DNA of 64,000 nucleotides from Pirellulaceae bacterium (GTDB lineage Bacteria > Planctomycetota > Planctomycetia > Pirellulales > Pirellulaceae): NCBI GenBank assembly GCA_026004795.1, contig BPJV01000010.1, positions 62,001-126,000 of the forward strand. The letters are read 5' to 3'. Under the pieces are notes generated by a model that worked only from the letters and a program-made list of their open reading frames with translations, was not told the origin of the DNA and ran no database searches. The stretch's first letter is position 1; each line of letters starts with the position of its first letter. Of the stretch, positions 9,420 to 43,877 are shown piece by piece. The position numbers were made by a program, and so were the translations under genes.

Positions 9420-12254
9420 TTACTTAACCACGATGTTCACCAGGCGACCGGGTACCACGATCTTCTTGACCACCTGTTTATTCTCCAGCCAGGGACGGAT
9501 CCGCTCATCCTCCACAGCCAATCGTTCTAACTGTTCGTTGCTGATGTCCGCCGGAACGGTGATTTTCGCCCGCAGTTTTCCGTTGACCTGGACGGGAATC
9601 TCCAGTTCCGTGCTCTTGGTCAACTCGGCACTGTATGCGGGCCACGTTTCATAGGCCAGCGATTCGGCATGACCGAGACTTTGCCACAATTCTTCCGCGA
9701 TATGAGGTGCAAAGGGAGAGAGCAGTTTGATAAACGCCTCCATGACACTGCGTGGCCGAACCTCTTGCTTGTTGAAAAAGTTGACAAACTCCATCAACCG
9801 AGCGATGGCGGTATTGAAACTCATCGACTCGATATCCTTCGTCACCGCTTCGATGGTGCGATGCAAAACGCGGTTTTGTTCCGCGGTTGGTTCGACATCT
9901 TGCACACTGGGATGCAACGTCACCTCCGCGGCTTTTACGTCGATGAGCATCCGCCACACACGATCGAGGAAATTGCGCACACCGCTGACGCCGGTCATGC
10001 TCCATGGTTTCGTGGCTTCCAGCGGTCCCATGAACATTTCATACAACCGCAGCGCATCGGCACCGTACTCGCGCACGATCTCGTCGGGGTTGACGACGTT
10101 GCCCCGACTCTTGGACATCTTGTGGGCACGACTGTCGACGCGAATCTCGGGCTGTTCGGCTAGCACGAAGCCATCCCCCTGTTTCTTCACCTGGGTATCG
10201 GAGAGCTTCACCGGAGTTACCGGCAGTCCGGTCGAGCGTTCGATCCAGTGCCCTTGTTCATCCTTGTCCACCTCCGTAACACTTACCCAACGATCCGCCT
10301 GCCGAAAGGCGGTGTATTCTACCTCGCCCAAGATCATTCCTTGGTTGACCAATTTCTGGAACGGTTCGGCCGTGGAGACATATCCGCGATCGTAGAGCAC
10401 CTTGTGCCAGAAACGGGCATAAAGCAGATGAAGAACTGCATGCTCGGCACCGCCGACGTACAGGTCTACCGGCATCCACGCCCGCTCTTTGGCAGGATCG
10501 ACGAACGCTTGGTCATTGCGAGGATCGATGAAGCGGAGATAGTACCAGCACGAGCCTGCCCATTGCGGCATGGTATTGGTTTCTCGGCGATATCGTCGGC
10601 CGTCGATCTCCACGTACAACCACTCTGGGGGCGCTTTCTCCAGCGGCGGCTCGGGGCGGCCATGGGGTTTATAGTCGTCCAACTCAGGCAGATCGACCGG
10701 CAGGTCGTCCGGGGCGACGGGGCGAATCCTGCCGGTCGGTTTCCCGTGTTCATCGAGTTCGTGCAGGATGGGGAACGGTTCTCCCCAAAAACGCTGACGG
10801 CTGAAGAGCCAATCGCGAAGTTTGTAATTGACCGCTTCACGCCCCAGCCCCGATCGCGCGAGGTCCTCCGTAATCCGCCGCTTCACCTCTTCGGTGCTCA
10901 AGCCATCATACGGCCCCGAATTGCACGCTGTTCCAGGACCGGCATAACAAGCGGTGCCGGCGAGCACAGCCGCGCGATCGACCTCCTGCTGCTCCCCGGG
11001 ATCGACCACCGGAACGATTTCCAAACCAAACTGCCGCGCGAACTCATAGTCCCGCTCATCGTGCGCCGGCACGGCCATGATGGCCCCGGTCCCGTAACTG
11101 GCCAGCACGTAGTCGGCGATCCAAATGGGGATCGGTCGACCGGTGACTGGATTGATGGCGTAGGATCCGGTGAAGACGCCCGTCTTTCTCTTGGCATCTT
11201 CCAAGCGTTCCCGGTCGCTCTTGAAAGAAGCCGCCTGACAATAGGCCTCTACTGCCTCCCGCTGCTCGGCGGTCGTTAGCCGCTGAACAAACTTGTGCTC
11301 TGGAGCGATCACCATGTAGGTCGCCCCGAAGAGCGTGTCGGGGCGGGTGGTATAGACGCGCAGAAAGTCGTCCCCCAGTTCGGCCGGAAACCCGGTCCGG
11401 TGGCGGGCACTCCTCCACGCCTCGAATTGCTCGGCGGGCCCCAGAAAAAAGTCTACTTCCGCCCCGGTGCTACGACCGATCCAGTCGGCCTGCAGCTTTT
11501 TGATCCCAGCCGGCCAATCCAGTGATTCCAAATCATTGAGCAACCGATCGGCGTAGGCGGTAATGCGCAACATCCACTGCCGCAGCGGAATGCGCTGAAC
11601 GGGATGGTTTCCGCGCTCGCTGCGGCCATCGATCACTTCCTCGTTGGCCAGCACGGTCCCCAAAGCCGGGCACCAGTTGACAAGCGCATCATCCTGATAG
11701 GCCAAACGGTGCTTGTCCCGGTAGGCCGCAATGGCTTGCTCCCCCTGAGCCGCAATCTCGTCAGGAATGGGCAACTCGGCAATCGGGCGCCCCTTCTGTT
11801 GCTCTTTGTCGAACCAGGTGTCGAAGAGCACCAGAAAGATCCATTGCGTCCAGCGAAAGTATTCGACATCCGTCGTGGCTAATACTCGGTCCCAATCGTA
11901 GCTGAATCCGAGCATTTTCAACTGGCGGGTAAACTCCGCTATGTTCCGTTCGGTGGAAACACGTGGCGGAGTGTTCGTCTTGATGGCATGCTCCTCAGCC
12001 GGCAATCCGAAGGCGTCGAACCCCATGGGGTGAAGCACCGTTTTGCCACGCATCCGCGCATAACGGCTCACGATATCGGTCGCCGTATAACCCTCCGGAT
12101 GGCCGACGTGAAGTCCAGCGCCGCTGGGGTAGGGGAACATATCGAGCACATAAAGCTTCTCGCTCGTCGGAAACTCGGGAGTACGAAAGGTCTTCTGACG
12201 CTCCCAATACTGCTGCCACTTCGGCTCTATTTCCGCAGGATTGTATTTGGGCAT
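9420..12254 (-). CDS. leuS: Leucyl-tRNA synthetase
   Basis: A class I aminoacyl-tRNA synthetase that charges tRNA-Leu. It has the HIGH-type motif in [17 protein letters not shown] (about residues 41-57), the KMSKS loop in [13 protein letters not shown] (about residue 713), the long CP1 editing insertion between them (including [24 protein letters not shown] and the [14 protein letters not shown] segment), and an anticodon-binding C-terminal region ending in [21 protein letters not shown]. At 944 residues it is slightly longer than many bacterial forms. The start [14 protein letters not shown] is standard for the family. The GT2 gene follows immediately downstream. Confidence 0.97.
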
Positions 12255-12767
12255 GTCCGTTCTTACTGTCCATTCTTAGCTGTGGGAATCATGTACAGAA
12301 TCATCGCGCAACACACGAAGTCCGATATTGGCGGTATACGGTAGGTTATCGACGACGATTCGACCAGAGCAGGAGGACGACCAGCAGCTACGACAACCGG
12401 TTTCGAGGCGGCAGCTGGCCATGCCCTGGAAATCCTCGCCATCGGCCGCTCCTCATGATAGTCCCCATCCCCCTGGCTCACGATAGCCGGTACTGCCATG
12501 CCGTTGGCCGGCAAAGCTAAAGAGGTTCGCATGGCGAGATCGTCGGACCGCACCGCCGGGTACCCGCCGCGGCGGCGTGGAAGTTGGCAGTCGCTCGATG
12601 CCGACCTTGCCACCCCATTTCCCTCACGGCCAACTTCTCCGCTGCGCGTTCCCTGTGCGGAGGGAACCAAGTCGATGCGGTAGCCCAACTACTAGAGGGC
12701 GGCGAGCCAGGCGCACGCTGCGTCGCACCAGCTCGTCACCCGACGTCGTCGCCATCGAGTTACCCAA
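12255..12767. other. Intergenic stretch upstream of leuS, no supported gene
   Basis: About 510 bases between secA and leuS, both on the minus strand. A 141-residue frame fills most of it on the minus strand, but its composition (mixed Arg, Ser, Gly, no hydrophobic core, no motif) does not look like a protein. The region may carry a leuS leader; I could not identify a T-box or terminator/antiterminator pair. Confidence 0.4.
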
Positions 12768-14822
12768 TCACTCGGCCGTATCCAGGTAAGGATCTTGACC
12801 GATCTCGCGCTGGAGTTTCGTTCGCTCGCGCTCGTGATGGAGGAGCATCATGCGGTCGCGGAAATGCTTGCGCTCGACACGCCGTTGGGCCTTGCGAAAC
12901 AAGCGAGCCATGTGATGGAACGGTCCAGGTTTGGTTTTTCCCAGCTCCGCCAACTCCGCGGCTCGCTTCAACCCGAAACCATTCTTCAGGATATCGTCAT
13001 CCAAGGAAAGGTACTGCCGATACGATCCGGGGTCTCCCTGTCGACCACAACGGCCGATCAACTGGCGATCGACGCGGGCCGAGTCATGCAATTCCGTACA
13101 AATCACATGCATGCCGCCCAGGGCTCGAGTTTCATCTGTCAGCTTGATGTCCGTACCACGCCCGGCCATGTTGGTTGCCACCGTGACTCGTCGGTACTTG
13201 CCCGCTTCGGCAACGATCTCCGCCTCCCGCTCGATCTCGTTCGCATTGAGTACCTGGCATTCGATCCCTTCAGCGCGCAGCATCTCCGCCAGCAAATTGG
13301 ACTTGTCGATCGACCGTGTGCCAATGAGCACTGGCCGCCCCACCTCATGCATCACTTTGACCTCTTCCACGATGGCGGCGAATTTTTGCTCCATCGTGCC
13401 GTAGACACGGTCAGGCAACTGCTGCCGTTGGGGGGGACGATTGGTAGGCACTAGCACCACGGGAGTCTTGTAGATTTTGCGCAGCTCCGGGGCACTGGTG
13501 GAGGCGGTTCCGGTCATGCCGGCAAGGAATCGATAGCGATGGAAAAGGTCTTGTACGGTGATCCGCGCGGCCTGACCAGTGGGCACCGTCACCTCGACTC
13601 CTTCCTTCGCCTCGATGGCTTGGTGAATTCCGTCCCGCCATTTCCGACCTTCTGCTAAGCGGCCAGTGAATTCGTCGACGATGACAATCTCGCCGTCACG
13701 GACGACGTATTGCTGATCGAGGTGAAAGTCGCGGTGTACCTTGATGGCCCGTTCAATGAATTCGTAGAGATCAACGAGCGCTACGGTGCGCAGGTCCTCA
13801 TCGCGAGGCAAGCTACGGACCACAGCCCGGCCCCGACCTGTCAGCTCGATCTTCCGCGTGTCCTCGTCAATCGTGAAATGCTCGTCCACCTCGAATTTTG
13901 CCGCATGTTCGGCAGCCCAGCGGAAAGTAGCGATGACCGTCTGCCGCGTTTCGTCGCCGAGCGAGCCAATGATCAACGGCGTGCGCGCTTCGTCGATCAA
14001 GATGCTGTCCGCTTCATCCACCAACGCGAAATGCATCGTTCGCTGCACCGGCTCATCTCCCTGGCCCGTCCATCGTTCGGCACTACCATCACCGAGAAAA
14101 TCCGAAAGAATTCGTCCTTGAGCGCGTAACAAGAGGCGATCGCGCAGGAAATCGAAGCCGAATTCCTTGGCCGTTCCGTAGGTGATGTCGCAGGCGTAGG
14201 CCTTGCGCCGCTGGTCCGGTGAGTGATCAGTGAGGACAACCCCCACTGACACGCCCAGTAGCTCATAGATGGGACGCATCCACGACGCGTCGCGCTCGGC
14301 CAAGTAATCGTTGACCGTGGCTAGGTGAGCCCCTTTACCAGCCAGTGAGTGCAGGTACAGCGGTAGCGTCGCGGTCAGCGTTTTACCTTCACCGGTTTGC
14401 ATCTCCGCAATGCATCCGTCAAAGAGCGCTGCCCCCCCCAAGATCTGCACATCGAAGTGCCTCATGTTCAACGCTCGTCGCCCCGCTTCGCGGACCAAAG
14501 CAAACGCCTCCGGCAGCAGATTTCGCAACGATTCGCCGCTCATCGCCCGGTATCGTAGCGACAGACTCTGCTTCCGCATCTGCTCTGTGGTCAGCTGCCG
14601 CATCTGGCTCTCCAACGCCGCCACTTCATGCAAGGCACGGATCCAGCGCCGCACCATGACTCTTCCCATCCCGGGAATGGGCGTTCCGGCAGCAATGCGC
14701 GGGCGACTGGGCAACTGCACCGGTGGAATTGGTTGGTCACCAGGCGCAGGACGATCCCGCTCTTCGCCCCCTGGCACCGCCGACGTGGTCGGCGCGCTCG
14801 TTGGTACTTGGGCTTCACTCAT
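12768..14822 (-). CDS. secA: Short SecA-like preprotein translocase ATPase
   Basis: A motor ATPase related to SecA. It shows Walker A in AEMQTGEGKT (about 140-148), Walker B VDEADSILIDEARTP (about 268-282), the preprotein cross-linking region between the two halves of NBD1, and NBD2 motifs NMAGRGTDIKL (about 551) and IGRCGRQGDPGS (about 589). An extended Pro-rich N-terminus (about 50 residues) precedes the usual MGRVMVRRW region. At 684 residues it is clearly shorter than normal SecA (roughly 800-900). The sequence stops soon after the first helical scaffold segment, so the helical wing, IRA1 hairpin and zinc-binding C-terminus are missing. It is probably an accessory paralogue, and a full-length SecA should exist elsewhere. 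Confidence 0.85.
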   Translation of the reverse strand: MSEAQVPTSAPTTSAVPGGEERDRPAPGDQPIPPVQLPSRPRIAAGTPIPGMGRVMVRRWIRALHEVAALESQMRQLTTEQMRKQSLSLRYRAMSGESLRNLLPEAFALVREAGRRALNMRHFDVQILGGAALFDGCIAEMQTGEGKTLTATLPLYLHSLAGKGAHLATVNDYLAERDASWMRPIYELLGVSVGVVLTDHSPDQRRKAYACDITYGTAKEFGFDFLRDRLLLRAQGRILSDFLGDGSAERWTGQGDEPVQRTMHFALVDEADSILIDEARTPLIIGSLGDETRQTVIATFRWAAEHAAKFEVDEHFTIDEDTRKIELTGRGRAVVRSLPRDEDLRTVALVDLYEFIERAIKVHRDFHLDQQYVVRDGEIVIVDEFTGRLAEGRKWRDGIHQAIEAKEGVEVTVPTGQAARITVQDLFHRYRFLAGMTGTASTSAPELRKIYKTPVVLVPTNRPPQRQQLPDRVYGTMEQKFAAIVEEVKVMHEVGRPVLIGTRSIDKSNLLAEMLRAEGIECQVLNANEIEREAEIVAEAGKYRRVTVATNMAGRGTDIKLTDETRALGGMHVICTELHDSARVDRQLIGRCGRQGDPGSYRQYLSLDDDILKNGFGLKRAAELAELGKTKPGPFHHMARLFRKAQRRVERKHFRDRMMLLHHERERTKLQREIGQDPYLDTAE

Positions 14823-27497: not shown

Positions 27498-29273
27498 CTA
27501 ATAGAATCGATAGACGGCCAAGGTAGGAGTTATAAAAAAGTGAGGAGCGATGGTTGCAGACTCGCGAAGCCAAGTGTGGAATTCCGGCCCGGCGTGATTG
27601 ACCTTACTCCAAGGAGCTGGAACCTGCAAACAACGCATTACAATCAACTCGGCCGATGGCGTCGCATCAGGATGGTCAGGCTTGCCGAAATCCTGACGCA
27701 ACAGTCGCATCATGAGATCGGTAGGGGGCAGCCTTTGATCGAGCTGAATTAGCTCCTCCGGTATGTCCGCATCGATGCAGATAAACCGCTCCGTTCCCGG
27801 TTGCGGCGGGTTTCGCGCAATCCACTTTTCGAGATACCAAAGGTCCTGACCAGAATCGAAATTGGTGTCGTGCAGTGCCGGCGTCGCTGCATAGCTTCCG
27901 CCAAATAGAGGATTGATATACGCATAATAATGTGGGAAGGTAGAAGTGACCTCGATTGTTATCAGAAAAACTACAACCGTATAGCCGGAAAATCTAACAT
28001 AGCGCCTACCCCAAGTCGCGAGATGAACCGCGGCGCCGATAGCTAAGTATCCGAGCGGTAAGATTGGAAACAGGTACCTTATATTGAGTGCCATCGTTCT
28101 ATGAGAGGAAAACAAGGCCAATACCAGTAGAGTGATAATTGCGGACATCGCAACAAGCGCAACGAGCTGTCTTTTCGCGGGGTGGATCGATTTGCAACCT
28201 TGGAAAATTGCACAACGCATAACTGGAGCTACAGCCACGACGACCAGTATCGATCCGACCACGGTTGCCATCTGCTCTTTGCAAAGTAATCCAATCAAAT
28301 AGTACCACCAGGGTGCAACCTCATAGTGTCGTCCCAGAATGTACGTGGGATAGCATTTTTCAATCTCCAATTGCTGTTCGTCGATCCCTACCAAAAACTG
28401 CTGTGGAAAGGGCGACCTCCAATCTTCGAACGGTTGCGTCAAGTGCTTGAAACGGGCGCTTTGAAAATGATGCTGCTCAAGGATTGCAAACGGCTGATGG
28501 AATCCGTAAACCCAATGAACTACCAATAAGGCAATGCCGCCATGCAACATATGTGAACCGAGCAGCCAAACCACTTTTTTCGCCGAGAAATGAGAAATTG
28601 CAGCTTCATGGGCCAGGAGGCCGATCGGCCAAAAAAGATAGATCGGCAAAAACGTAAACTTCGTGGAAAATGCGGCACCCCACGCCAAGCCGACGAGGAT
28701 GGATCGCGGCAGTCGGCGGATTTTCAACCAATGGATCGACAGGACGATCAGTACGATCATCATGCAGCCCGCCAAAGCATCTGGCATTAGTGTCCAGCCA
28801 TGGCCGAGCACGAGAGGGCTCGAAAGGTACAAGAGCGCCGCAACTCGGCCAGCCGTTCGCAGTACTCTAGGTAGCCCCCAAAGGAGAAACGATCCACTAA
28901 ATACAACGATGGCAACTCTTGCAAGGCGACCTAAAAAGAAATGCCACCGATATTCCTGCGCATTCTCCAAGATTGCGTCGACGCCCAAGCGGTACTCGAG
29001 GCGGGAACCACTTGGCATGGCAGATGCATCGTACAACCTGGGTATGCTTGGATGAAACAACGCTTCAACAAAGGCCCCACTAATAATTTGTGGAAGAGGA
29101 GGATTGCCGCGATCGTACCCAGGATCGCCTGTTCGCACCATCGCAACGGAGGAGTAAAGATGGGCGACCTCGTCTCCGACAGGCGCTCGGGTGAACGCTT
29201 GCCAGCAGAGAGCGAAAGCGGAGGCTGAGAATGCGATCGCCCATAACAATTCAGGCTTCCACTGCATCGCCAT
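27498..29273 (-). CDS. GT-C membrane glycosyltransferase (ArnT/PMT-like)
   Basis: A polytopic inner-membrane protein with about 10-12 hydrophobic helices and, after the first helix, the motif APVGDEVAHLYS in the first periplasmic loop. This acidic pair is typical of GT39/GT83-type enzymes that use polyprenol-linked sugars to modify proteins or lipid A. A C-terminal non-membrane domain (from about FDSGQDLWYLEKWIARNPPQPG) is probably periplasmic. I place the start at ATG 29273 (MAMQWKPELLWAIAF); the frame is open to 29333. The gene lies in the A/T-richer island shared with the C39-like cluster, 264 bases downstream of it on the same strand. A specific acceptor cannot be named. Confidence 0.8.
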   Translation of the reverse strand: MAMQWKPELLWAIAFSASAFALCWQAFTRAPVGDEVAHLYSSVAMVRTGDPGYDRGNPPLPQIISGAFVEALFHPSIPRLYDASAMPSGSRLEYRLGVDAILENAQEYRWHFFLGRLARVAIVVFSGSFLLWGLPRVLRTAGRVAALLYLSSPLVLGHGWTLMPDALAGCMMIVLIVLSIHWLKIRRLPRSILVGLAWGAAFSTKFTFLPIYLFWPIGLLAHEAAISHFSAKKVVWLLGSHMLHGGIALLVVHWVYGFHQPFAILEQHHFQSARFKHLTQPFEDWRSPFPQQFLVGIDEQQLEIEKCYPTYILGRHYEVAPWWYYLIGLLCKEQMATVVGSILVVVAVAPVMRCAIFQGCKSIHPAKRQLVALVAMSAIITLLVLALFSSHRTMALNIRYLFPILPLGYLAIGAAVHLATWGRRYVRFSGYTVVVFLITIEVTSTFPHYYAYINPLFGGSYAATPALHDTNFDSGQDLWYLEKWIARNPPQPGTERFICIDADIPEELIQLDQRLPPTDLMMRLLRQDFGKPDHPDATPSAELIVMRCLQVPAPWSKVNHAGPEFHTWLRESATIAPHFFITPTLAVYRFY

Positions 29274-29536: not shown

Positions 29537-30724
29537 TTATCTGTTTCTGCGAAAAGCACGACCGATATAATACCCCGCGAGCGCGAGCATCAGAATGATG
29601 TTTAACGCAAAAAAAATGGAGCGCATGGAGCCAACCCCGAAGCGCTTCCCAAAATTGTAGATGCTTTCATTCACGCTGTCTTCTAGTGTCGTGTCACCGT
29701 TTGGGTAGAAACGATAGCTCTTTCCTTCAATGTTATCGATCACCCAATCGCCCGGCTCGGGGCCAAGGGTAAAGATTGAATCTGGCACATCATTAACTGA
29801 CAAATTCGTTATCTCGATCTCATTGACGATATTCCCCAATCGATGATTCAAATTAGACGGATCCGCCATTTCATGCGTGATGACAATTTTGGTCGGCAAG
29901 TATACTCCCGTCAGAACTTCTTCGTGGGCCGAATATGCATTCGACCAACGCAAGGTATCTCGCAACGGCTTTTTCTGCCAATAATAAATCAAACAGTAGT
30001 TCCGGCGCGGATCCAACCAAAGCTCCCGGGTGCCATCCCGCTTCCGGAAAACAACACAATCTATCGAATCTCTAGCAGCAAGTTCAGGCAATACGTCCCA
30101 TTCCTCCTCATTCAAGAAATAGGGAAGAAAATAAGTCTCGGATGGGCTTTTCCGACACCAGTCCAGTTCGGACGGCGAAATCGGCCACAACAAAGCATTT
30201 CGGTACTCGTCGATAACACTCAGATTGGACAGTTCCTTTTGAAGGATGTATTTTTGCCCAGCGACTTCCCGGGCTTTGTTGATGGCACCATCGAACACCG
30301 AGATCGTATTCTCAGTTGCCGGCATGCCATTTGAGTTGATTGACTTCACCCGCCGCTCTGATCGATGCTTCTCCCCACTCCAGTAAATTTGTATCTTCGA
30401 CGAGAGCACGGCTCCACGCAGAAGTCCAGCGCGTTCCACCGCCTTGTCGAATTTTAACTCCGACGAAACCGTGAATCGCATTGACTTAATCGAACGTCTT
30501 TGCTCCGCAAGGAGTCTTTTGTATTCCGGAATGGTGATACGCGCGGTAGTTCCCTGCGCGAGCACTGGTTGGCATAACGCAGCGCAGAGCAACACCACAT
30601 AAGCTAGCCAACAAACCATTGTAGATCTTGAATGAAGCCAGCTCACGCCAATTGGGGCGAGGACGCTGCCGTCAGTCAGATTGAAATGTCCAACATGACT
30701 TCCTACATGAAGCATTGATTTCAT
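29537..30724 (-). CDS. Membrane-anchored LolA-like protein of unknown function
   Basis: A 395-residue protein with an N-terminal hydrophobic segment (VCWLAYVVLLCAALCQPVLAQG, about 37-58) and a C-terminal transmembrane helix (SIFFALNIILMLALAGYYI) followed by a basic tail. The part between has the feel of a LolA/LppX-type lipoprotein-binding fold: MRFTVSSELKF near the start, KIQIYWSGEKHRSE, TRELWLDPRRNYCLIYYWQKK, YLPTKIVITHE, and the closing FTLGPEPGDWVIDN often seen in planctomycete LolA-like proteins. Its ATG at 30724 overlaps the stop of the toroid gene (ATGA), so translation is coupled. An internal ATG at 30619 would give a shorter signal peptide. It belongs to the C39-like gene set. Confidence 0.6.
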   Translation of the reverse strand: MKSMLHVGSHVGHFNLTDGSVLAPIGVSWLHSRSTMVCWLAYVVLLCAALCQPVLAQGTTARITIPEYKRLLAEQRRSIKSMRFTVSSELKFDKAVERAGLLRGAVLSSKIQIYWSGEKHRSERRVKSINSNGMPATENTISVFDGAINKAREVAGQKYILQKELSNLSVIDEYRNALLWPISPSELDWCRKSPSETYFLPYFLNEEEWDVLPELAARDSIDCVVFRKRDGTRELWLDPRRNYCLIYYWQKKPLRDTLRWSNAYSAHEEVLTGVYLPTKIVITHEMADPSNLNHRLGNIVNEIEITNLSVNDVPDSIFTLGPEPGDWVIDNIEGKSYRFYPNGDTTLEDSVNESIYNFGKRFGVGSMRSIFFALNIILMLALAGYYIGRAFRRNR

Positions 30725-31953
30725 ACCCTCGCCATCGGTTCAGACAAATTCAACAAGGCCCGTATCGCATGAGTCACAGGTAGCAGGTTGGCATTATATA
30801 AATCATTGCGATTGATCTCAAACTGGCGTAATAGATAATTGGCAGCGCGAGCGATTACGTCGCGTGGAGGCCTTAAATCTGGTGGCACGATGGCAAACCA
30901 TTCGAGCATATGCCCGGTAACACGAATCGTATCGTTGTAGTGACCAATGAGGTCTGTGCTTTCTTGCTTGGCAGTCGTTGACGTGCCGACCCACCAGTTC
31001 CCATCCCACGAGCCGTCCTCGTTTTGGCAGCCGACCAGATGGCGACTTATGTCCTTCAAGTGATTCTCGCAATGCTCTCGAATGTGCGGTGCTGCAAGCT
31101 TGGGGAACCGGCGGGCCCACATGCAATACTTCGCGATGGCGTAAAGCCGATGTGTCCCGTTGCAGGCACCACTTGCTGGCGATCGTCTTACCAATGCCTC
31201 GGCGATTCCATCTACAGAGTAGGTCTTTCCATGGATTGTTGTCCAATCCCGCTGACGAAGATAGCAGCAGTAACCAACGAGGGTAAAATCGAGTTCGCGT
31301 CCAAAGTCGAAACGCTGCATTGAGTCTTCAAGTACATCAGCCAACGTTACAACCCGATCGGTGGAAGTGACTAATGGATAGTCGAGACCAACGCCAAGCT
31401 CGCCCAAAACGCAGAGCATTATATCGACGTGAGTCATCCCTCCTTCCGCGATCGCGCCGATAGAACCGGCTACGCTCAAGCTTGAGCGACTTCTGGTACG
31501 ATAGCCAGCGCCGTATACAGTTTCGGTGAGCACTGGTAACCCGCTGCCGAATCTGCGAAAAACGCGATCATCGGTGAGCAATTCGAGCACGTCGTCGAAA
31601 TAATTGCGCTCGGGAGGAGCGAGAGTTTCCATCCCGTGCGCACGTAATCGCAGACTGTGTACAGCTACGGCAGGATCACCCATATTTTTCGAAACAGAGG
31701 CCAAGACGACGTCGTTTAAAAACCTTTGCTTTAAGTTTTGATCAATTCGGAGACCCTCTAACGGGTAGGTTCGAAGCGGGTCCGGCTTAAAGCGTCGATC
31801 CAATAGAGCCTTCGAGCCTGACCGCACGTGCGGCGAAGGTTCGCTGATGGGCCGACGCGACACAAAAATCTGGCCATAGAAGTGCGTCGCTAAAAATATC
31901 AAGCCTGCCGTGAGAAACGCAATTGAGAGATATTTTCGCATGATCATGGACAT
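30721..31953 (-). CDS. Exported alpha-toroid (prenyltransferase/squalene-cyclase-like repeat) protein
   Basis: About 410 residues with an N-terminal membrane anchor or signal (YLSIAFLTAGLIFLATHFYG). Helical repeats follow that resemble the alpha/alpha toroid of squalene-hopene cyclases and protein prenyltransferase beta subunits. The clearest sign is the QW-like motif LVGCQNEDGSWDGNWWVG; others are GTHRLYAIAKYCMWARRF and IGHYNDTIRVTGHMLEWF. The catalytic DxDD of cyclases is not seen, so it is likely a binding or structural toroid. ATG 31953 has GGAGG 11 bases upstream and lies 2 bases beyond the C39-like gene's stop; in-frame ATGs at 31947 and 31941 are alternatives. Its own stop overlaps the next start. 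Confidence 0.6.
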   Translation of the reverse strand: MSMIMRKYLSIAFLTAGLIFLATHFYGQIFVSRRPISEPSPHVRSGSKALLDRRFKPDPLRTYPLEGLRIDQNLKQRFLNDVVLASVSKNMGDPAVAVHSLRLRAHGMETLAPPERNYFDDVLELLTDDRVFRRFGSGLPVLTETVYGAGYRTRSRSSLSVAGSIGAIAEGGMTHVDIMLCVLGELGVGLDYPLVTSTDRVVTLADVLEDSMQRFDFGRELDFTLVGYCCYLRQRDWTTIHGKTYSVDGIAEALVRRSPASGACNGTHRLYAIAKYCMWARRFPKLAAPHIREHCENHLKDISRHLVGCQNEDGSWDGNWWVGTSTTAKQESTDLIGHYNDTIRVTGHMLEWFAIVPPDLRPPRDVIARAANYLLRQFEINRNDLYNANLLPVTHAIRALLNLSEPMARV

Positions 31954-31955
31954 GA

Positions 31956-32618
31956 TCAGACGAGCCTCCGAAAGCTTAACCAAAACATCACCATCGCACT
32001 CGCCAACCCGATTCCCACGCCGTAGACGATCACACCAACATCAGAAAAGCCGTTAAGTTGATCGGAATCGATCAAAACGTACCCCGTTGCTAATCTCGCG
32101 ATCAAGTCGAGCTGTTGATGCGTCAACCGTGCAGTGTTACCATCGAAAAAACGGACGAGTTGACCGCCTTCATCTCTTTCATCGACCTGTAAAACCGTCA
32201 CAAAATGGCCTGCAGCGCCTTGATCAAGAAGCTCCAGATGAAGAATAAATGGCACGGGTAAGTCCGCTATTTTCGCAGGCTCGACTAAAAGAATGTCAGC
32301 ATGTACGCCAAACTGTTCAGCAACTCGTTCGAGGTCTTCCATCGAAGACCCCTTCACTGGGTCAATGGGGAGATGCAATGCGAGTTCATCATAACGAACC
32401 TCAATCCCCGAGACTCGCAAGAAGCAATAGAGTGAGTTCAGACCACAATGCCCAGGCTCCGACCAATTCGTTGTGTCGGCGGCAAGAGTTGCCCCACAGA
32501 TTATCCCAAAGATAAATACCGCGATAAACACCTCGCAACGACCGTCGCGCGAATTGGGGGAAAGCCTGCGCGCTTTGCGCATCGATGAGCAGCACTGACT
32601 GGGCGTGCCTTGCTTCAT
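31956..32618 (-). CDS. C39-like cysteine peptidase with N- and C-terminal membrane segments
   Basis: C39 peptidases cleave after double-glycine leaders of exported peptides. This protein (220 residues) has GHCGLNSLYCFLRVSGIEV, matching the CGxxSL start of C39 domains with the nucleophile Cys; GAAGHFVTVLQVD, with the catalytic His; and VRFFDGNTARLT, where the Asp would fall. The upstream hydrophobic stretch (VFIAVFIFGIICGATLAA) and a C-terminal helix (VGVIVYGVGIGLASAMVMFWL) would place the domain outside the cytoplasmic membrane, unlike ABC-transporter C39 domains. It heads a tightly coupled set with the toroid and LolA-like genes. A likely substrate candidate lies upstream at 33093-33446. Confidence 0.65.
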   Translation of the reverse strand: MKQGTPSQCCSSMRKARRLSPNSRDGRCEVFIAVFIFGIICGATLAADTTNWSEPGHCGLNSLYCFLRVSGIEVRYDELALHLPIDPVKGSSMEDLERVAEQFGVHADILLVEPAKIADLPVPFILHLELLDQGAAGHFVTVLQVDERDEGGQLVRFFDGNTARLTHQQLDLIARLATGYVLIDSDQLNGFSDVGVIVYGVGIGLASAMVMFWLSFRRLV

Positions 32619-32734
32619 ATCGGTGACCTGGCTCTTAATACCGATTTATCAGTATTTGGAAGCACGCGAAGCGAAACGACGCGAGCAAGCTTGCGAACCC
32701 ATTTCTTATCGCCTCGCTATTCTGCAAAAATTTT

Positions 32735-32751
32735 GGGCCGAACAACGGCCC
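32735..32751 (-). terminator. Hairpin upstream of the C39-like gene
   Basis: GGGCCG and CGGCCC form a 6-base GC stem with a 5-base loop. On the minus strand it is followed by AAAATTTTT. It could end transcripts from the cysteine-rich protein gene, or just be a random stem; the T-run is imperfect. Confidence 0.3.
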
Positions 32752-32901
32752 ACTCATTCACGCTGCGCCTGCCAGTCGACTTCTAAATCAACGTCGCATC
32801 AGGCTGATGACTGAAAGGGGGACGCTACGCCACTTTAATCGCGGAATGGGTAAGCCTATGTCGGTGATAACTTCGTTTGTTCGTTGGTTGCCGGCGTTAC
32901 C

Positions 32902-32930
32902 AGCGAGCAATCGCTTGGGGATTGCTCGCT
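32902..32930. repeat. Perfect 11-base inverted repeat (hairpin)
   Basis: AGCGAGCAATC and GATTGCTCGCT pair perfectly around a 7-base loop, about 160 bases downstream of the cysteine-rich protein gene stop (minus strand). No T-run follows. It may be a transcript-stabilising stem between that gene and the C39 operon, which would let the first gene be expressed more strongly than the rest. Confidence 0.55.
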
Positions 32931-33092
32931 GCGGAACCTCGTGATAAAGCAGGAGAAACTTTAGAGTGTGTTCCGCTGCCGACCTGCCAAATTCGAAACA
33001 TCGCACTCGGCAACCACACAGAACACATCGAGACGTATCTCCTGAAGGCCGGCATTCGACGTTTTAGCCCGAAACGCAACCGTACGCATGTC

Positions 33093-33446
33093 CTACGAGC
33101 AGCCCTCATCAAACCTCGCGGAACCGCAAGTGATCTGTCGCCCGTTGACGGTCTTGGTATCGCAGACCTTGTCCCTGTATTTCCTTGTTCCAGTATATGG
33201 ATTCGACTTCAAAACACTCGAGGAGGTCGTTCCGCAGGCACTCCCATCGCTAAAAGTACTGCCCGAACATTTGGTCACTGTTTTATCGAAACTTTGGTTA
33301 CAGACGGCGCCGAACACACCGCCTGCCCTTACCAGTTCCGCCGACGAAACCCTGACCCCCACTGAACGAGGGTTGAGACCGAAGAAGTCGACGCAATTTC
33401 CAACAAGCAGTAGCACCGATGCGAGCAAACTCATTCTTAACAGCAT
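33093..33446 (-). CDS. Small exported cysteine-rich protein with an ELxxxGG leader-like motif
   Basis: 117 residues. The start is well supported: AGGAGG lies 9 bases upstream of ATG 33446. A hydrophobic N-terminal segment (MSLLASVLLLVGN) is followed by a linker with SSAELVRAGGVFGAVC (residues 34-49). The double glycine at 42-43 after an Glu-Leu pair resembles double-glycine leaders, though EL is one residue closer to GG than in the classical consensus. After GG come about 74 residues with six cysteines (49, 60, 71, 95, 107, 116), many Ser/Thr and few hydrophobics, as in disulfide-stabilised secreted mini-proteins. It lies in the same orientation, 475 bases upstream of the C39-like peptidase gene. 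I recognise no named family. Confidence 0.6.
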   Translation of the reverse strand: MLLRMSLLASVLLLVGNCVDFFGLNPRSVGVRVSSAELVRAGGVFGAVCNQSFDKTVTKCSGSTFSDGSACGTTSSSVLKSNPYTGTRKYRDKVCDTKTVNGRQITCGSARFDEGCS

Positions 33447-34384
33447 TTCACCATTCCTCCTAACGAGACTGGGATCGGACTCTCACACGAAAGCCTGGAG
33501 CGCATTTTAACGTTGGCGCGGCGAATGTCAAGCAATTTGCCTGCGTCTTGGTCGGCACGTCGGCAGGTCGGCACAGATAGGAAGGAGGTGGGAACGGATG
33601 CACCCAGCCTCATGCGCGAGGAGGATTGGCAGAGCTTTGCATTGGGGGAGCGGCCAAAAGGGTTTTTGCGGGAACCTCTTGATGCCGTCGCTAGGCACGT
33701 GCACCTCCGGAGAATTCGTTCGCGCAAAGAACTATTAACACAACAGCCCAACGAGTATGCCGCTGGCAGGATGCGTCTGGGGGAAGCCCTGCCGGCAGCT
33801 TAGCCAGGCGGAACTCCTCAGGGATGGGAATCGCAACATGCCCGTTTTGGCCGAGGGCCAAACTCACTGGCGCTGCAATCTGGTCGGCCCCGATTCACGA
33901 CGAAGACGAGGAATCTCTGAAACAGTCCCCGCTAGGGCACGTCGGCTTCAGTGAGTTTGGTCTTCAGCCGCCAACCTCGATTCGCACTTCCATCGTGGGA
34001 CAGTTCGTGGCCGGAAAGCCACGTTTAACCTCAGACTACCGTGCGATCGTGCCTGCGGTCAATCACTGCTAGGGGACCATCATCCTGACGACCACGTGCG
34101 GTTGGCGATAGGTAGTGAACGTCAACAAACTCCGCTGTAAGAACGCCACTTGATCTTGATTTTCTCGTTCGCATCGTCAGCCTCCCAGAATTTTCTCCCA
34201 AAAGCCGACAATCTAGCCCCCCCTCACTCCACCAGACGTCCGATTTGTACCGCTCCCTGACAAAACGCGTTCTGAACCACACTTGCTTGGGCAGCGTGCT
34301 GGTATTGAAAAAACACACTTGCTTGCGCGGCGTGCTGGTATTGAAAGCGTGCCGGGTTGGAAAGTGCGCTGGGCTGGAAAGCGT
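33447..34384. other. Gene-poor stretch with short tandem repeats
   Basis: About 940 bases. A plus-strand frame at 33513-33803 has partly protein-like sequence (MREEDWQSFALGERPKGF) but no recognisable domain or start, and may be gene debris. From 34278 to 34349 there is a 36-base tandem duplication, and degenerate copies of its second half continue to about 34390. Confidence 0.4.
34278..34349 (+). repeat. 36-base tandem duplication
   Basis: Two adjacent units beginning CACACTTGCTTG and containing GCGTGCTGGTATTGAAA (34278-34313 and 34314-34349), with a few mismatches. Further decayed pieces follow. Confidence 0.75.
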
Positions 34385-34495
34385 GTGAGTTTGCGGTAAG
34401 CGTGTGTGAAGCTATTTTGGGGAATGGGTAGGCTGGAGGTGGGTCTGATCCTCTAGCCGAAAGGAGCTCCGTTCCCTGGAACAGCTTACTGCAAC
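34385..34495 (+). repeat. Dispersed 110-base repeat, copy 1 (leader of an IS66-like accessory gene)
   Basis: Starts GTGAGTTTGCGGTAAGCGTG and ends in ACAGCTTACTGCAA. It is nearly the same as 43878-43988. It includes an AAAGGAG ribosome site and the first codons of a small gene. In this copy the start codon is CTG; in the other it is ATG. Confidence 0.85.
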
Positions 34496-34856
34496 GAACG
34501 ATTCTACTGCAACGAACGAGCGTCTTACTGCGACGAACGATTCTACTGCATCGAACGATTGTCTCACCGCAACGAACAATTCTACTGCAACGAACGATGG
34601 TCTTTTCGAGCAGGCTGTGGAGGCGTTCAGGCAGTGGAGGGGGGCGAAGTCGGGACGCGGCCGGAGTCCAGATGAACTCTGGAATCTGGCATGTCAGGTC
34701 GCTCGCAGGCACGGCATCGCGAAAACCGCCGGGTCGCTGAAGCTCGACTACGATAGCCTGCAAAGACGGTTGGACGGTAATGGTGGAGCACGGGATAAGG
34801 CCACTGACACTCCGCAAAAGCGTCGTCGCGGCAGTGCCGTATGCCTTCACAGATAG
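34476..34856 (+). pseudogene. IS66-type accessory protein gene with lost ATG and internal 39-base repeats
   Basis: The continuous frame from CTG 34476 to the TAG at 34854-34856 encodes about 126 residues. It begins LEQLTATND, then three 13-residue repeats (LTATNDSTATNER type). A helical basic domain follows (FEQAVEAFRQWRGAK, GRGRSPDELWNLACQVARR, HGIAKTAGSLKLDYDSLQRRL). That last domain is a small helix-turn-helix-like module found in planctomycete genes next to IS66 TnpB. AAAGGAG precedes the CTG, and the equivalent codon in the second copy of the leader is ATG, so this copy seems to have lost its start codon by a point change. No TnpB or TnpC follows. I assign the IS66 link from pattern memory only. 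Confidence 0.5.
34485..34601 (+). repeat. Three tandem 39-base repeats inside the coding frame
   Basis: Three units of 13 codons each (LTATNDSTATNER, LTATNDSTASNDC, LTATNNSTATNDG). Being a multiple of three, copy changes would keep the frame. Confidence 0.85.
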
Positions 34857-43086: not shown

Positions 43087-43877
43087 ATGAGCAGAAAGCG
43101 GCACAGTCCGGAACAGATCATCAGGAAGCTTCGGGAGGCGGATGCGATGTTGTCGGCTGGGAAGACGATCGGGCAGGTTTGCCAGGCGTTGGAGATCAGT
43201 GAGCCGACGTTCCATCGCTGGCGGAACGGGCACCGACGCGCAGCGTTGGTCGCGGTGGGATGAAAGCCGAGAAGGCTCGGCGACTGAAGGAGCTTGAGGC
43301 GGAGAACAAGCGGCTGAAGTGTCCGCTGGCCGAAGCGGAATTGGACAAGCTGATTTTGAAAGAAGCCTGGGAGGGAAACTTTTTCGTGTTGCCATAGCTC
43401 TCCGGTACCCCAGCCGACAATGTCATGTCCTGCGTTTGGCTGCTGGCTCGACAACTGAAAAAGCCCGTCGCGGCGTCGTCAGGCGGTCGCTCACGTGCAA
43501 CAGCGAGTGAACGTTTCGCAGCGTCGGGCATGTCGTGTGCTGGGTCAAGCTCGGAGCACTCAGCGTTATCAGGCGAAAGAAGATTCCCCAGAGGAGAAGA
43601 AGATGGTGTCGCGCATACACGAACTAGTGCGGCAGTATCCGCGTTATGGTCATCGCATGATCACCGCGAAATTGCGTCAGGAGGGTTGGTTAGTAAACTT
43701 CAAACAGGGGCAATCGTCTGTGGCGTCGTGAAGGCCTGAAAGTACCGCAAAAGATGCGGAAGAGGCGGCGTTTGGGGCACAGCGGCAACTGCCTGAGTGC
43801 GTCGGCGTGCCGAGCATAAAGATCACGTTTGGGCGTGGGACTTCATCCAGGATCGCACGTCCAGCGGTCGTCCGCTG
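43087..43877 (+). mobile_element. Degenerate IS3-family insertion sequence (orfA and truncated orfB)
   Basis: A broken IS3-family element. orfA starts at ATG 43087 (MSRKRHSPEQIIRKLREADA, HTH GKTIGQVCQALEISEPTFHRWR) and stops early at 43263. Its second half is in another frame (GMKAEKARRLKELEAENKRL, AEAELDKLILKEA) up to 43397. orfB begins in the stretch VNVSQRRACRVLGQARSTQRY to YPRYGHRMITAKLRQEGW, shifts frame near 43700 (LWRREGLKVPQKMRKRRR), and ends at HVWAWDFIQDRTSSGRPL, just after the first DDE-region residues. The rest is missing, replaced at 43878 by a dispersed repeat. An inverted pair ATGAGAGT/ACTCTCAT overlaps the ribosome site AAGGAGG. It is dead as a transposon. Confidence 0.85.

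Follow-up and report, generated by a model that had tools for sequence, protein, structure and literature searches.

Most C39 peptidase domains that have been characterised belong to ATP-binding cassette (ABC) exporters, among them the AMS/PCAT (LahT, ComA, and PCAT1) and NHLM-type exporters. C39 peptidases read the leader elements Leu-12, Glu-8, Leu-7, and Val-4 and a GG, GA, or GS pair (PMC6363468). FapD of the functional amyloid of Pseudomonas (Fap) is a Sec-targeted, standalone periplasmic C39 peptidase without an ABC exporter; its authors stated in 2017 that canonical C39 sequences are missing from the Fap proteins and described this class of C39 peptidases as still awaiting characterisation (PMC5557850). 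Here we describe a gene set in 64,000 nt of DNA from a Pirellulaceae bacterium (contig BPJV01000010.1, positions 62,001–126,000 of the forward strand; "the window," within which all positions are given), in which a small Cys-rich precursor gene is linked to genes for a C39-like peptidase, an alpha/alpha-toroid protein, and a LolA-like protein.

FapD is the closest precedent for this set, as an extracytoplasmic C39 peptidase without an ABC exporter appears to be present in both. Unlike in the Fap system, a canonical double-glycine precursor accompanies the protease, together with the toroid and LolA-like partners. The cluster has C39 catalytic residues and double-glycine leader elements in common with the AMS/PCAT and NHLM-type exporters, but its C39 protein has neither a transmembrane exporter domain nor an ATPase, and its precursor carries a Sec-type signal; maturation would take place on the opposite side of the membrane. 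An earlier reading of the window (the original prediction) had taken C39 domains to be normally part of ABC exporters, which is right for most characterised C39 domains but leaves out FapD. We think it probable that the cluster represents a planctomycete system in which a membrane-anchored C39 peptidase acts outside the cytoplasm to mature Sec-exported double-glycine propeptides of small Cys-rich proteins. At the level of sequence comparison, the system, the linkage of its genes, its leader grammar, and the C39 family with its catalytic residues are established. By title or abstract opening, no publication describing this arrangement was found among the matches listed.

A gene set conserved in Planctomycetia

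The genes of the set in the window are as follows.

33093..33446, minus strand: Cys-rich precursor gene, 117 amino acids (aa), with a signal/hydrophobic segment, a leader (aa 1–47), and a core (aa 48–117) with 6 Cys
33306..33446, minus strand: signal plus leader, 47 aa, with the predicted C39 cut between A47 (codon 33306–33308) and V48, as suggested by an alignment of 30 leaders
31956..32618, minus strand: membrane-anchored C39-like peptidase with C58, H138, and D159, an N-terminal signal, and a C-terminal transmembrane (TM) segment; alternative GTG start at 32531
30721..31953, minus strand: membrane-anchored alpha/alpha-toroid protein (predicted fold) with invariant His/Cys residues
29537..30724, minus strand: LolA-like protein (weak family identity) with a signal peptide and a C-terminal TM segment

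The toroid gene follows the C39 gene after 2 bases, the start of the LolA-like gene overlaps the toroid stop as ATGA, and 474 bp separate the precursor gene from this three-gene run. The open reading frame (ORF) coordinates, the gap and the overlap, the ELxxxGG-type motif, and the six core Cys are as the original prediction described them, and the linked gene set in the window is confirmed as real.

We searched 60 relatives with the single proteins and found the small protein in the window's own genome and four others (E values of 0.003–0.007), the LolA-like protein in its own genome and two others, the C39 protein in its own genome and 10 others, and the toroid in 55 of the 60 genomes, with C39 matches adjoining toroid matches in several relatives. 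A first contig scan with the single toroid protein of the window found no relative. With a C39 profile, 63 of 297 genomes of the window's order matched at E ≤ 1e-8, and a search across the phylum matched 63 of 292 genomes. Clusters, detected with local hidden Markov models (HMMs) on the fetched regions, were seen in the window and at loci L059–L069, L102, L104–L108, L110–L112, L126, L147, L164, L195, L209, L225–L227, and L288–L291. The core set used below comprises 28 loci, leaving out L147 (a copy of L062) and L288–L291 (found later); its members were selected for a C39 gene beside a toroid gene or, in the case of L107, for C39 with a LolA-like gene and a precursor.

The C39, toroid, and LolA-like HMMs all match in 26 of the 28 core loci, L065 being without a LolA-like and L107 without a toroid match, both on short contigs. 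Further, 27 core loci have, within the set or next to it, a small gene whose product combines a hydrophobic N terminus with a GG/GA-type pair and several Cys, and the sole locus without one, L065, ends at a contig end. The neighbourhood is thus conserved and the small protein goes with the three genes, as the original prediction required. L066, L106, L126, and L225 carry two precursors each, and 34 of 36 precursors lie 450 bp or less from a core-gene frame on the same strand. C39 and LolA-like sequences share one reading frame in 8/28 core loci, and C39 and toroid do so in L110; at L059, a 911-aa frame (10440–13175, plus strand) joins LolA-like, C39, and a DUF1559 pseudopilin, which may reflect a genuine fusion or an artefact of the draft assembly. 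The core loci span the window's order and other orders of the class Planctomycetia. Carriers include Singulisphaera acidiphila DSM 18658, Singulisphaera sp. GP187, a Gemmataceae metagenome-assembled genome (MAG), and a Pirellulales MAG, which NCBI places in the orders Isosphaerales, Gemmatales, and (by title) Pirellulales; further matches outside the window's order belong to one family (f21). The cultured S. acidiphila DSM 18658 appears to have two loci, L195 and L290, the latter assigned through L280, which matches L195. A chance neighbourhood was rejected because the cluster is conserved and an HMM of the leader found new loci.

The precursor and its double-glycine leader

The window precursor has a ribosome-binding-site-like GGAGG, an N-terminal hydrophobic segment, the motif ELVRAGG, and seven Cys, one in the signal region and six in the core. 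A lipoprotein reading was rejected, the LVGNC of the signal region looking unlike a lipobox. Across 36 precursors, leaders of 37–49 aa precede cores of 50–176 aa with 6–15 Cys, and core length and sequence differ greatly from locus to locus. The number of core Cys is even in 29 of these (two-sided binomial p = 3e-4, uncorrected for relatedness), and in 28/36 the last Cys lies 5 or fewer residues from the C terminus. Nonsynonymous rates (dN) are below synonymous rates (dS) in three pairs compared over whole frames (0.089/0.32, 0.02/0.059, and 0.314/0.562; dN/dS 0.28–0.56).

When 26 precursors from 24 loci are aligned at the cut, the conserved columns are V/L at −12 (24 precursors), E/D at −8 (20), A at −7 (21), L/V/I at −4 (26), G at −2 (25), and G/A at −1 (25). 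These 26 match double-glycine leader criteria (hydrophobic residues at −12, −7, and −4, an acidic residue at −8, G at −2, and G, A, or S at −1), with Ala rather than Leu at −7, and the agreement of the columns with the C39 recognition elements in PMC6363468 supports the double-glycine reading. The window leader agrees only when a 3-residue insertion is allowed. In a MAFFT alignment of 30 leaders, it reads VSSAE-(LVR)-AGGVFGA/VC, which keeps V-12, E-8, A-7, V-4, G-2, and A-1 and places Cys at +2, as in many relatives; anchored in this way on A47, the GG at 42–43 sits at −6/−5. Since the canonical positions align once the insertion is allowed, the C39 peptidase is more likely to cut the window precursor after A47 than after G43, where the original prediction had placed the cut. 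A cut after G43 would put R at −4, compared with L/V/I in all 26 precursors, the window itself, anchored at A47, being among them. The window precursor matches the leader HMM with E = 2.7e-7, although this match is not independent because the window leader was among the sequences from which the model was built.

To score leaders, we used a position-specific scoring matrix (PSSM) in a leave-one-locus-out test, ranking among all ORFs of a locus. The precursor ranked first in 17/24 loci (in L066, a second precursor outranks it), and five loci, the window included, scored below 11 bits. A strict filter, comprising a frozen PSSM score of at least 11, a hydrophobic segment upstream, and at least three Cys, gave 29 matches in 429 kb of core loci: the 26 training rows, the second copy in L066, L147 (which repeats L062), and one false membrane protein. 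By contrast, there were no strict matches in 846 kb from 76 loci with a toroid and no C39 (toroid-only loci), and none in 378 kb from 22 loci, nearly all toroid-only. Five matches (L095, L103, L114, L115, and L131) came from 519 kb of remaining loci, all near a same-strand C39 gene, and a later set of 20 C39 loci gave strict matches in 3/3 loci with C39, toroid, and LolA-like genes and in 0/17 others.

The leader HMM (alignment A8) was then applied to whole genomes. A set of 20 hand-picked genomes, most of which carry the cluster, gave 20 matches at E ≤ 1.4e-4, every one at a C39 locus and one at a new locus (L275 in genome G533, with LolA-like, C39, and precursor genes; leader VSSAEASSVFGG, cut before VTC). 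Eleven weaker matches in these genomes include the known L067 precursor and a false one, L276, without C39. The search of 397 genomes of the class gave 25 matches at E ≤ 1e-4, spread over 18 genomes and without exception at C39 loci, and the four new loci among them, L288–L291, are C39, toroid, and LolA-like clusters; 17 candidates were scored per genome, which makes the prevalence a lower bound. In total, five new loci came from the leader HMM, each beside a C39 gene. At E ≤ 0.1, two more matches, L095 and L103, come from the genome that holds the window, again each beside a C39 gene. At these loci (G000:C12, 5742–7120, minus strand, and G000:C2, 10278–11641, plus strand), a C39-like membrane protein is directly followed by a 14-Cys precursor with the leader DWRPDSGLVWGG; the two are near-identical copies (210 of 219 residues), and the fetched stretches gave no toroid or LolA-like match. 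At L231 (7027–8470, minus strand), one of the 17 loci of the later set that gave no strict match, three tandem short Cys-rich genes with a weaker variant leader (AEQVAARSVKGA, cut before KC) lie beside a standalone C39-like gene.

The C39-like peptidase and its partners

The window C39-like protein (220 aa) matches Pfam PF03412 with 36.3 bits (cut-off of 22). Against structures in PDB, the C39 profile matches ComA (2.7e-16), 4ry2 (1.8e-15; "ABC-type bacteriocin transporter"), and 6mpz (2.6e-14; "Double Glycine Motif Protease domain from AMS/PCAT Transporter"), the last two of which we take to be PCAT1 and LahT, respectively. The assignment to C39 made in the original prediction therefore holds by sequence, at the level of family rather than of fold. 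The Fap FapD equivalog model gives the window protein 13.8 bits against a cut-off of 330. Among 20 aligned cluster C39 proteins, the catalytic Cys and His are present in all, and the third position is Asp in 17 and Glu in 3. A clear C-terminal TM segment is seen in 17/20, with 52 Lys and Arg after it and 28 before it; since the C39 domain lies between a signal-like N terminus and a TM segment with a positive tail, we infer that it is extracytoplasmic.

Cytoplasmic action of the domain, in partnership with an ABC exporter whose genes lie elsewhere, would be the usual mode of most characterised C39 domains, and the C39 domains of two relatives match NHLM exporters (TIGR03796, 1.5e-6 and 3.6e-6). 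We consider it highly improbable, given the signal-like N termini of both the C39 protein and the precursor and the tail just described. Further, a simple motif test over 6 kb detected an ABC ATPase motif pair in none of the 28 core loci (three frames were found near 92 toroid-only controls), in line with the original prediction that no ABC exporter is nearby; by this test, the C39 gene is neither fused to nor beside a TM domain plus ATPase, which is the arrangement of the AMS/PCAT exporters.

The residues H99, H175, C264, H268, Q310, H348, and H395 (window numbering) are invariant in 19/19 cluster toroids. This alignment (A3) has 19 rows, mostly not fetched by motif patterns, with L164, L195, and L209 not included; a 79-row alignment (A6) was not used for C264, H268, and T346–H348 because patterns that contained these same motifs had been used to retrieve its loci. 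The window toroid has an alpha/alpha-toroid fold as modelled, and LanC is not among the 50 structure matches listed for it. By sequence, the cluster toroids belong to the same family as the planctomycete TGHxLEW-motif toroids of the toroid-only loci. Loci L142–L221 have a toroid without C39 in 76/80 cases, and in 70 of these 76, unlike in the cluster, a conserved membrane protein of ~560 aa is encoded just upstream, forming a second two-gene unit; one such membrane protein searched gave no Pfam or NCBIfam match. In L070–L085, 10/16 toroids gave no match to a CxGTH-type motif.

Several points weigh against maturation of these precursors by an active, extracytoplasmic C39 peptidase. First, the precursor anchors were initially chosen by eye as a GG/GA-like pair close to a Cys, which favours columns −2 and −1; the first precursor scan covered the cluster strand only; and the cut-site pair deviates in L107 (AG), L110 (GT), and L225 (GQ). 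Second, the window leader is atypical, scoring 8.0 bits with the PSSM and standing 24th among the 995 ORFs of the window, a poor match that the 3-residue insertion explains, and the window precursor ORF was not called by a simple gene caller. Third, of 52 C39-like loci outside the core, 5 have strict and 5 weaker precursor candidates and 42 none, so that most standalone C39-like proteins fetched cannot be assigned to the system. Fourth, the positive-inside evidence for the topology of the C39 and LolA-like proteins is modest; in the latter, a C-terminal TM segment is seen in 16/18, with 47 Lys and Arg after it and 40 before it. The LolA identity of the third gene is itself weak: Pfam LolA_like (PF17131) matches 2/18 relatives (best 1.4e-5) and not the window protein, and an AlphaFold model (5 sequences) has a pLDDT of 37. 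Finally, activity of the C39 domain is not assured because none of the 20 aligned cluster C39 proteins has the Gln, a putative oxyanion residue, that would be expected at position −6 from the Cys (W in 13, A in 4, other in 3).

This absence would fit a domain that has lost catalysis and binds leaders as a chaperone, as does the C39-like domain in exporters of the HlyB type; the HlyB domain also matches by sequence (1.3e-6). Such a chaperone seems unlikely given the conserved catalytic residues described above, and the leader is best conserved at, among other positions, the cut site, which is what a substrate should show (in part an effect of the anchoring). In LahT, the Gln lies 4.3 Å from the oxygen of the intermediate (PMC6363468), so it may not be required.

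Proposed maturation and the role of the product

Recurrent neighbours, which the original prediction had missed, bear on the role of the product. A DUF1559 pseudopilin lies within 6 kb in 16/28 core compared with 2/92 toroid-only loci (Fisher 1e-10), and a PMT_2-type (GT-C) glycosyltransferase in 8/28 compared with 0/92 (Fisher 4e-6), the mean stretch lengths being 12.8 kb and 10.6 kb. Five core loci seeded each neighbour HMM (the window among them for PMT_2), which leaves 11 DUF1559 and 3 PMT loci out of sample; L288, L289, and L291 add further cases. The DUF1559/H-X9-DG pseudopilins are thus recurrent neighbours, but they form a large family with other members, 74 of which have been reported in R. 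baltica (PMC2754498).

Two accounts of the product agree with our reading on export and leader removal and differ on what follows. In one, a C39 peptidase like FapD licenses the secretion or assembly of a DUF1559 surface fibre, of which the Cys-rich protein is a structural or adhesive subunit. The DUF1559 enrichment, the single frame at L059, and the FapD precedent (PMC5557850) point this way, whereas no DUF1559 gene was seen over 6 kb at 12/28 core loci, the window included, although contig ends truncate some of these, and the FapD model score is far below its cut-off; we regard it as quite possible, though on balance we would not expect it to hold. In the other, the cell would secrete the product as a peptide with a bacteriocin-like or signalling role. 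Double-glycine leaders with C39 are typical of both, and the variable cores, the patchy distribution, and the lower G+C content of the window cluster (0.49–0.53 over its genes and 0.58 in the whole window) are consistent with it; yet the cores are long, and PADLOC gave no match for the five window proteins. This account is possible but rather doubtful. The same PADLOC result led us to reject a defence system, and a tblastn search of plasmids with the window C39 protein gave no match.

Three further features of the window lie around the genes of the set.

33504..33531, minus strand: promoter-like TTGACA-16-TAAAAT (11/12) upstream of the precursor gene; shuffled sequence gives comparable numbers of such sites for the region
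32734..32752, minus strand: terminator-like hairpin between the precursor and C39 genes; here, too, shuffled sequence gives comparable numbers
27498..29273, minus strand: PMT_2-like (GT-C) membrane glycosyltransferase, downstream of the set, a probable associated gene (E = 0.004, below the Pfam cut-off)

Tandem repeat arrays with periods of 36, 17, 18, and 39 lie upstream of the precursor gene (34278–34604), and ORF fragments resembling, as judged by eye, pieces of an IS3-type transposase lie at 43087–43731.

Returning to the proposed extracytoplasmic maturation, Sec would export the precursor through its N-terminal signal, and the remaining propeptide, a canonical double-glycine leader, would be read by the membrane-anchored C39 peptidase with its domain facing the periplasm and cut immediately N-terminal to the Cys-rich core (after A47 in the window). 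The target of the membrane-anchored toroid, be it an enzyme or a binding partner, may be either the precursor or the core once released, and the LolA-like protein might hold or hand on the product. The mature core of 50–176 aa, probably disulfide-bonded, would be secreted or, as the neighbours suggest, attached to a DUF1559 pseudopilin fibre, with GT-C glycosylation in some cases. The window would be a lower-G+C member with a 3-residue leader insertion. More tentatively, and as a rather doubtful possibility, we raise a new class of ribosomal peptides matured wholly outside the cytoplasm, in which, after Sec export, the membrane-anchored toroid modifies the core with a Cys/His site invariant across the system, the ecto-C39 peptidase removes the leader, and the LolA-like protein hands the product over to a pseudopilus.

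Overall, we conclude that the original prediction is partly supported: comparative genomics supports a Sec-type signal, a double-glycine leader, and an extracytoplasmic C39 peptidase linked with a toroid and a LolA-like gene. The presence of the system in cultured S. acidiphila DSM 18658 makes it open to testing. In Planctomycetia, double-glycine leader processing would be separated from ABC export, and an ecto-C39 peptidase would be paired with canonical precursors, which Fap lacks according to the FapD paper (PMC5557850). The leader model finds such systems in whole genomes and gives a functional context to uncharacterised families, namely the toroid and LolA-like proteins, the DUF1559 neighbours, and the Cys-rich precursors.

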